A stretch of DNA of 34,889 nt, taken from Rariglobus sp. GTDB lineage: Bacteria > Verrucomicrobiota > Verrucomicrobiia > Opitutales > Opitutaceae. Positions within the stretch are counted from its first letter, which is position 1. Every line of letters starts with the position of its first letter. Below, piece after piece: positions 11,795 to 20,054 of this stretch. The notes beneath the pieces are model-generated. The model searched no databases, was not told where the DNA came from, and worked only from the letters and a program-made list of their open reading frames with translations. The stretch is from NCBI GenBank assembly GCA_029266495.1, contig JAQSWS010000063.1:1-34889 (forward strand), given 5' to 3'. The translations under genes and the position numbers were made by a program.

Positions 11795-11867
11795 GCTGCT
11801 CGAAGGCCTGAATGCGACCGTGGTCCGAGGCGTGCGCCGAGGGAGGTTGCATGGCAGGCCTGCCGGA

Positions 11868-11887
11868 CCCTGAACTCACGTTCAGGG
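11868..11887. repeat. TCAC-loop hairpin repeat, copy 1
   Basis: CCCTGAAC, loop TCAC, GTTCAGGG is a perfect 8-bp stem followed by TCACGA. Related copies with paired base changes lie at 18716-18735 and near 32001-32020. A separate 12-base palindrome, GGCAGGCCTGCC, sits just upstream at 11853-11864. Confidence 0.6.
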
Positions 11888-11912
11888 TCACGATGCCGGG
11901 AGTCAGGCCACG

Positions 11913-11943
11913 AAAAAACCCGCGACATGCGTCGCGGGTTTTT
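11913..11943. terminator. Bidirectional terminator between can and efp
   Basis: A run of A, then CCCGCGAC, loop ATGC, GTCGCGGG and a run of T form a stem with U-tracts on both strands. It lies between the convergent can (ends 11794) and efp (ends 11973), and probably serves both. Confidence 0.88.
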
Positions 11944-11972: not shown

Positions 11973-12379
11973 TTACGCGCGGCCCATGTAGGTGCCGTCG
12001 GCGGTGCTGATGCGGATGATTTCGCCTTCCTTGATGAAGAGCGGCACGTTGACCACGAGGCCGGTTTCGAGGGTGGCGGGCTTCTGGACGTTGGAGGCGG
12101 TGTCGCCTTTGATGCCATCGGAGCTCTCGGTGACCTTGAGATTCACGGAGGAGGGGAGTTCAACGGTGAGCGGCTTTTCGTCGACGAAGAGAACGTCCAC
12201 CTTGCCGTTGGCGGTGAGGTAAAACTTGGACTCACCGATGAGCTGCGCGCTCAGCTCGACCGTTTCGAACGTCTCCGGATCCATGAACGCGAAGTTTTCG
12301 CGGTCGGCGTAATGACGAGGTGGGGTTCGCCGTTGAATTTGATGACTTGGCCTTTGCGAATGTCGTTGGCTGAGGGCAT
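11973..12379 (-). pseudogene. efp: Elongation factor P, internal deletion and frameshift
   Basis: EF-P rescues ribosomes stalled at polyproline. The start ATG 12379 gives MPSANDIRKGQVIKFNGEPH, a normal EF-P N-terminus. After GEPHLV the frame runs into ITPTAKTSRSW and stops at 12251. In the next frame the rest of EF-P begins immediately (HYADRENFAFMDPETFE) and continues to a normal C-terminus (TLETGLVVNVPLF, ending DGTYMGRA) at 11973. Compared with E. coli EF-P, about 50 residues are missing between the two halves, including the loop with the modified Lys34, and the join is out of frame. Either the gene is a recent pseudogene or the assembly collapsed here. If it is real, another efp copy would be expected elsewhere. 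It is divergent from the hydrolase gene across 96 bases. Confidence 0.85.
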
Positions 12380-12475
12380 GACGAGGGTGGGCGGGTTTGA
12401 GTTGTAGAAAGGTTAGGTGGTAACGCCCCGCGCGAGGGGGTGTCAAGTGCGCGGACTTGTGGGGAACGGCAAACC

Positions 12476-13321
12476 ATGGCAACGTTACGCATGTTCAAAA
12501 ACCGACGGCTCCGCCTCCTGTTGCTTCCGGTCGCGGGCTACTTCGGGTTTTGCGCGGCGATGGCCTGCTTCAAGGAAAGTTTGATCTTTCCGCTTCGGGG
12601 CGTGGAGCGCGCCCAGGCGTTGACGCCGCCTCGCGATGCGAAGGTCTGGTGGAACGAGATATCTCCGGGCGTGCGGACCGAAGCGTGGTTTTTTCCGGGC
12701 CGCGGGTGTTCGCCGGAGTCTCCGGGACCGGCGGTCGTGTGTTTTCACGGCAACGGGGAGCTGATCGATGACAACGTCGGGACGGCCCATGCGTTCAACG
12801 CGCTGGGAATTTCCGTGCTGCTGGTGGAGTATCGGGGTTACGGACGATCAGGAGGGGTGACTGACATCGACGGTATTCGGACGGATTCCAAGGCGTGGTT
12901 CGACCGTCTTGCGTCACAGCCGGAAGTGCGTTCGGGCGAGGTGATGACGTATGGTTTTTCCTTGGGAGCCGCCTTTGCCGCCCAACTGGCGGGGGTGCGG
13001 CCCGTCGCGGTGCTGATGATGGAGTCGCCGTTCACCAGCCTGGCCGAGATGGCGCGAAACCAAGGCATTTATCTCTATCTTTCGAGTCAGCGCCTCGACA
13101 CCGGCACCGTGTTGCGTGCGTTGCCGGCCGGGCTGCCGATTATGATCACCCACCAAAAAGGCGACTCGGTCATCCCGGTGACTTTGGGGCGCAAACTGGC
13201 GGCACTACGGCCCGATGCCCTCTATGCCGAGGGTGAGGATGACCACCTTCCGCTGGTCATGAGCGAATTGGGGCATGCCCGGCTGCGCCGGTTTTTGGCG
13301 AAGTTCATTCGTGCGAATTAG
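12476..13321 (+). CDS. Alpha/beta hydrolase, membrane-anchored
   Basis: This is a 281-residue serine hydrolase. An N-terminal basic stretch and hydrophobic helix (about residues 11-30, LRLLLLPVAGYFGFCAAMAC) suggest an inner-membrane anchor with the catalytic domain outside. The oxyanion motif HGNGE is at 91-95. The nucleophile elbow is YGFSLGA with Ser162, the acid is probably Asp230 (HQKGDSVIP) and the base His257 (EDDHLP). The layout matches the BEM46/YfhR-like group of hydrolases whose substrates are mostly unknown. ATG 12476 has GGGGA about ten bases upstream; an ATG at 12491 is an alternative. It is followed by the palindromic element at 13321-13500. Confidence 0.8.
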   Translation: MATLRMFKNRRLRLLLLPVAGYFGFCAAMACFKESLIFPLRGVERAQALTPPRDAKVWWNEISPGVRTEAWFFPGRGCSPESPGPAVVCFHGNGELIDDNVGTAHAFNALGISVLLVEYRGYGRSGGVTDIDGIRTDSKAWFDRLASQPEVRSGEVMTYGFSLGAAFAAQLAGVRPVAVLMMESPFTSLAEMARNQGIYLYLSSQRLDTGTVLRALPAGLPIMITHQKGDSVIPVTLGRKLAALRPDALYAEGEDDHLPLVMSELGHARLRRFLAKFIRAN

Positions 13322-19355: not shown

Positions 19356-19655
19356 TCAATGTCGGTCGGCGAGCTCGCGGAGGAAGTCGTAGCTGTAGAG
19401 CCCGGTGCGGTGGCCGTCGCTGAAATCGAAGCGGATCGCGTAGTTGCCGACGACCTCCCAGCCGAGGACGGTTACCCCGGGGAACTTCTTCGGACCATCG
19501 CCGCCGTATTGGTTTCCGAGAATGTCGCGTTCGCCAATGTTTTGCGCGCTGGGGGAGGCGGCTCGCAGGTCTTCCATCGGGTAATAAGTCTCCGCACCGT
19601 CCTCCCAGATGATGGCGACTTCGTTGCCGATGAGTTGAATGTTGGCGGGCGTTTT
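19356..19655 (-). CDS. DUF971 domain protein
   Basis: The roughly 99-residue protein matches DUF971: IQLIGNEVAIIWEDGAETYY, LRAASPSAQNIGERD, GWEVVGNYAIRFDFSDGHRT and GLYSYDFLREL. This domain also forms the N-terminus of gamma-butyrobetaine hydroxylases. The usual cysteines of the CPCA-type segment (SPSA here) are replaced, so a metal role is unlikely at that site. The start is uncertain: GTG 19655 (MKTPANIQLIG) best fits the family length, while TTG codons at 19673 and 19700 would add 6 or 15 residues. It is divergent from the Dabb gene. Confidence 0.75.
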   Translation of the reverse strand, partial: KTPANIQLIGNEVAIIWEDGAETYYPMEDLRAASPSAQNIGERDILGNQYGGDGPKKFPGVTVLGWEVVGNYAIRFDFSDGHRTGLYSYDFLRELADRH

Positions 19656-19751
19656 CACGATGCGAGGGATCAACGTGCGGCGTGTCGGCGCCGGGAGCAA
19701 AATTAAATTTGGGCTCGCCGCTGGCTAGCAGGACCGGTGGGGTGAGGGATC

Positions 19752-20054
19752 ATGCTCGTTCATACCGTCATTTTTTACCTGCGCAGCGATCTCACCGAGG
19801 CACAGAAACTGGAGTTCCGCAACGAGGGCTTGGAGTCGCTCCGCCCCATCCAAGCGGTGAAGCACTACTTCGTCGGCGTGCCGGCGGGGATTCCGCCGCG
19901 TCCGGTGGTGGACTTGAGCTTTACGTTCTCGATCACGGCGATCTTCGATGATGTGGCGGGCCACAACGCGTATCAGGTCGATCCGGTGCACAAGGCGTTC
20001 GTCGAGCGGTTCAAGAGTTATTGGACGAAGGTGCAGATTTACGACGCGGAGTGA
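19752..20054 (+). CDS. Dabb family (stress-responsive A/B barrel) protein
   Basis: The 100-residue protein fits the Dabb ferredoxin-like dimeric barrel: MLVHTVIFYLRSDLTEAQK, LRPIQAVKHYFVGVPAG, FSFTFSI-like strand, and HNAYQVDPVHKAFVERF followed by SYWTKVQIYD. Members include plant stress-induced proteins and a few monooxygenase-like or cyclase-like enzymes; most bacterial ones have no assigned reaction. ATG 19752 has GAGGG just upstream. It is divergent from the DUF971 gene, and its 3' flank is a repeat island rather than a clear terminator, although the perfect inverted repeat at 20071-20095 could end transcription. Confidence 0.85.
   Translation: MLVHTVIFYLRSDLTEAQKLEFRNEGLESLRPIQAVKHYFVGVPAGIPPRPVVDLSFTFSITAIFDDVAGHNAYQVDPVHKAFVERFKSYWTKVQIYDAE

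Follow-up and report, generated by a model that had tools for sequence, protein, structure and literature searches.

A 151-base deletion with a frame change in the elongation factor P gene of a draft Rariglobus genome, a probable assembly error

The efp gene and its counterparts in relatives

Elongation factor P (EF-P) is characterized as strictly conserved across bacteria in a passage of PMC2821294. One type, presented in a section of PMC6544042, has an asparagine at the loop tip and a proline two residues earlier, and the same section places a deoxyhypusine-synthase-like protein in some prokaryotes whose tip residue is lysine or asparagine; asparagine tips are mentioned also in a passage of PMC11611912. 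The relatives of the genome studied here agree with this type, 108 of the 109 full-length ones having the loop HRTPGNLRA (PGN, with the tip asparagine placed by the PG-x motif). Among the relatives, of which the nearest named ones are mostly Opitutaceae (Verrucomicrobiota), EF-P was full length and without stops at 109 of 112 loci, a count of loci that are not independent as they may partly share genomes. The exceptions were one gene at a contig end (L104) and two copies of the very gene described below (L001 and L002). At the genome level, the N-terminal domain profile (EFP_N) matched in 49 of 56 genomes, the studied one included; of the seven without a match, six have a completeness of 64-86%, and the seventh, at 93%, has a genome of 0.9 Mb.

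The efp gene that we have examined lies on the minus strand of the window, which is the entire contig C32 (34,889 bases) of genome G000, a draft of 172 contigs and 4,892,833 bases (G, C and L numbers are our own labels). Its start, its 22 N-terminal codons and the region from YADREN to the end match those of Opitutaceae EF-P, and over the 112 C-terminal codons no gap interrupts the alignment to 12 close relatives. It differs by the absence of 151 bases, which in relatives encode the loop and the remainder of domain I, and by the consequent change of frame. Counted from its ATG (12379) through its TAA stop (11975..11973), it has only 407 bases, compared with 558 in relatives. An initial annotation had claimed that the central segment and the frame were lost, that about 50 codons were missing and that two conserved ends were joined directly in different frames. 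The alignment to the 12 close relatives bears this out, showing one gap only, exactly 151 bases long, a length that by itself alters the frame, and pairwise comparison with G002 and G010 put it at the identical point and length (Table 1).

Table 1. Features of the interrupted efp gene (positions in the window)
Feature	Position	Strand	Basis
Assembled efp (elongation factor P) gene with the 151-base deletion and frame change	11973..12379	-	
N-terminal part (22 codons plus 2 bases), MPSANDIRKGQVIKFNGEPHLV	12312..12379	-	EFP_N profile match and alignment
C-terminal part, YADRENFAFMD to stop; holds the complete C-terminal domain and the greater part of the OB domain; other frame	11973..12311	-	domain matches
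Blunt join; the 151 bases of relatives absent, no microhomology	12311..12312	-	alignment
Frame truly open from the efp ATG, 42 codons, ending in an unrelated frame	12251..12379	-	

On the left side of the join the sequence ends in CTCGTCAT, and on the right side it starts with TACGCC. In relatives, GGA continues the left side and AGC precedes the TA of the right side, so that zero bases are common across the join, i.e. there is no microhomology. The gene is not one uninterrupted frame, since the one that starts at the ATG closes after only 42 codons. The N-terminal KOW-like domain, which has the ribosome-facing loop, is incomplete (EFP_N matches at profile positions 1-21 of 58 only). In the downstream frame, positions 7-54 of 54 of the OB domain (domain II, PF01132) are matched, as is the entire C-terminal domain (domain III, PF09285; positions 1-56 of 56). 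Rescue of EF-P by frameshifting was discarded by eye, since no frame would supply the loop or the bulk of domain I.

A second efp, the search for which had been advised in the initial annotation, was not found in the genome, where the EFP_N and the C-terminal domain profiles gave one match each. No copy of the missing 151-base piece was found elsewhere, as a query of the genome gave one weak match (E 0.0165) at the efp locus itself; a second gene and a relocated segment were both rejected on these grounds. Between efp and an lpxC-fabZ-like gene sits an alpha/beta-hydrolase gene (window 12440-13321), with a relative in just 2 of 110 relative loci (L017 and L042), many of these loci being short.

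Loop tip, modification genes and the remaining codons

The initial annotation had the lost loop carrying the modified lysine. The loss of the loop stands and the lysine does not, given the asparagine tip of relatives (the loop of this efp is itself absent); as a reference for the tip residue we used the loop of E. coli EF-P. Among the modification genes, which had also been suggested for a search, no EpmB over the family cut-off was found in 28 genomes, with sub-threshold matches in 26 of them, the studied genome included. Thus neither a lysine tip (judged from relatives) nor an above-cut-off EpmB, as for a lysine-type EF-P modified by EpmA/EpmB, was seen. The search for EarP gave no match, and neither did its control anywhere. 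A protein of the deoxyhypusine synthase (DS) family is present as a nearly full-length match (C68:15167-16096 of the studied genome), and likewise in 13 of 13 searched genomes of the genus, the studied one included, and in 17 of 28 genomes overall. It was not found in G013, whose EF-P (L029) likewise has an asparagine tip. The DS-family gene is no evidence for EF-P modification in the studied genome.

In the codons that are left, the C part has 26 synonymous and 6 non-synonymous differences in 112 codons against each of L013 and L014, and the N part has 2 synonymous and none non-synonymous in 22 codons against the same loci; against L016, efp has 28 synonymous and 6 non-synonymous. Among L013, L014 and L016 themselves, the C part differs by 0 to 2 non-synonymous and 17 to 29 synonymous changes, and the non-synonymous counts reach 7 to 10 in pairs with L007 or L004. 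The remaining codons therefore appear to be without clear decay, as the initial annotation had stated, although replacements are slightly more numerous than among the three nearest loci; with 6 of them against each of L013, L014 and L016, and 0 to 2 among these three, the C part may be slightly relaxed.

Absence of clear decay is what would be expected of a real and very recent deletion that destroyed efp in a strain now living without EF-P. The blunt join without microhomology could be given by end-joining, there is no second efp in the genome, and efp deletion mutants are viable in some bacteria. However, PPP motifs amount to 4.78 per 10,000 residues here (278,357 residues) versus 3.03 in G002 and G010 together (413,100 residues), in sets that are not orthology-matched, and by these counts polyproline motifs are not depleted. 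The intact efp of the relatives examined and the breaks in carA and murD, the latter gene thought indispensable, within the same draft also speak against it, and we regard a real deletion as unlikely. Its biological corollary, a strain that lost EF-P lately and would still translate its proline-rich proteome via other factors, before decay or compensation, seems to us quite improbable.

Other interrupted genes in the same draft

We compared about 1.0 Mb of the studied genome (of 4.89 Mb) with sequence from two relatives, G002 (0.4 Mb) and G010 (1.2 Mb), in gene sets chosen by our own rule of GC by codon position rather than by a gene finder. Frame-changing intragenic deletions appeared in three genes of the studied genome, efp (151 bases), carA (136) and a pabB-like gene (68), over 181,346 aligned bases and 143 genes. 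In the opposite direction five deletions were listed, only one of them inside a gene of the set, and that one in frame. At the protein level, 173 genes of relatives on the studied genome gave 8 split rows in 7 genes, of which four were judged genuine (efp, carA, murD and pabB-like), two fell in upstream non-coding sequence and one was placed in neither class. The mirror test (162 genes, 7 rows) gave five edges upstream of the conserved start, the pabB pair once again and the same gene that fell in neither class. The excess of broken genes is small in these raw counts, with four cases that we judge genuine among 173 gene pairs. Apparent frame breaks discarded as upstream non-coding sequence were those at window 19612-20051 and in the pairs L133/L198, L159/L202 (both), L158/L203, L122/L186 (185 aa) and L198/L133; the 586-aa case of L204/L157 was placed in neither class. 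Genes for LysR, OEP, an aminotransferase and N_methyl were flagged for inner stops.

The closest parallel to efp is carA, which has a blunt, frame-changing internal deletion near its 5' end (C142:81712, equal to L156:1712), of 136 bases instead of 151. These bases are present in 19 of 19 aligned relatives (from 20 loci, L275 having been left out by the gene filter). The sole match of the CPSase small-chain profile in the studied genome starts at position 61 of 126, and in 27 other genomes 25 matches cover 1-125 or 1-126, the other two genomes being without a match. No second carA was found in the studied genome. The pabB-like chorismate-binding gene (C6:5941, equal to L122:5941) lacks 68 bases, with a change of frame, in comparison with one relative, G002, where it forms one frame with an HPPK domain.

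The case of murD (C10:71407-71936) is more complex, and its break was found by scans other than the nucleotide deletion scan, which did not pick it up. The gene is in three pieces (1-40, 55-201 and 260-430), with a TGA, and about 52 bases are gone after residue 40. The gene is thereby broken twice (L165:11407-11506 and 11831-11936), and at the other break an inverted copy of its own sequence replaces part of it, the 100 bases of L165:11831-11930 being repeated in inverted orientation, with 100% identity, at L165:11407-11506. Since 100 bases is a common read length, this suggests a mis-placed read. No second murD copy was found in the studied genome. The gene is required for a peptidoglycan wall, and its loss would be incompatible with such a wall, which we presume for this organism. 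In 17 other genomes, 15 had one match and G009 had the gene split by contig ends. In G001 a single contig (C271:1581-2820) has it as two overlapping pieces, a break particular to that genome, and breaks of this kind are therefore not confined to the studied draft.

The inverted copy in murD bears also on whether the efp deletion may be found in only part of the sequenced population or of the amplified DNA (a mixture of strains or an amplification chimera), and was chosen by the assembler. Such copies resemble amplification chimeras, and a draft in 172 contigs would fit. Short-distance inverted repeats, on the other hand, are not raised overall relative to G002 and G010. The studied genome has 2 in 997,690 bases, one of them a self-palindrome, against 1 in 400,000 bases of G002 and 2 in 1,200,000 bases of G010, both of the latter being self-palindromes, and we consider this explanation very improbable. 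Contigs L141 and L175, made up of N throughout, were part of the frame-break, alignment and protein-level scans and were left out of the searches for inverted repeats and junction words. Apart from these two contigs, there were no runs of N in the approximately 1.0 Mb examined. At the start of contig C1 (L117), the first 99 bases (1-99) recur exactly at 2623-2721, 2.6 kb further on; among 61 contig ends examined it is the sole one with an exact repeat of at least 21 bases in the sequence compared.

Origin of the deletion and its meaning

The cut in efp is most probably an error of the draft assembly, in which two correct stretches were brought together and the intervening 151 bases left out; the efp of the organism itself is most probably a normal gene of full length. 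What favours this reading is that carA, murD and the pabB-like gene are also broken in the same draft, and the need of a walled bacterium for murD makes a technical cause of the breaks likelier than a biological one. The lesions in the four genes would then share such a cause, and the organism's own efp would be intact. An unsuccessful gap fill or a mis-join may have led to the omission of these bases, and the exact step could be gap closing, mis-placement of reads or chimeric amplification, which is a guess on our part. Gap filling is portrayed as prone to mis-assembly in a passage of PMC9575681; as runs of N are absent from the sequence compared, outside the two contigs made up of N, we can only infer it here.

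Counting against an assembly error, there is no repeat or microhomology at the efp join, unlike in a plain repeat collapse; the lack of N runs, the small excess of broken genes, the broken murD of G001 and the few additional replacements in the C part of efp count in the same direction. Repeat collapse was rejected on the first of these grounds and also because sequence words spanning the join, 16-60 bases long, are unique in about 1.0 Mb of the 4.89 Mb. The initial annotation had offered either a recent event or an assembly collapse; the codons agree with recency, the other broken genes favour an assembly error and it is the collapse of a repeat that did not hold.

This reading is a caution against concluding, on the strength of a single draft, that a nearly universal translation factor has been lost. 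In spite of its listed completeness of 99.75%, the draft appears to hold structural errors in conserved genes, and for this reason other claims of gene loss from the studied genome need checks at the level of the reads.
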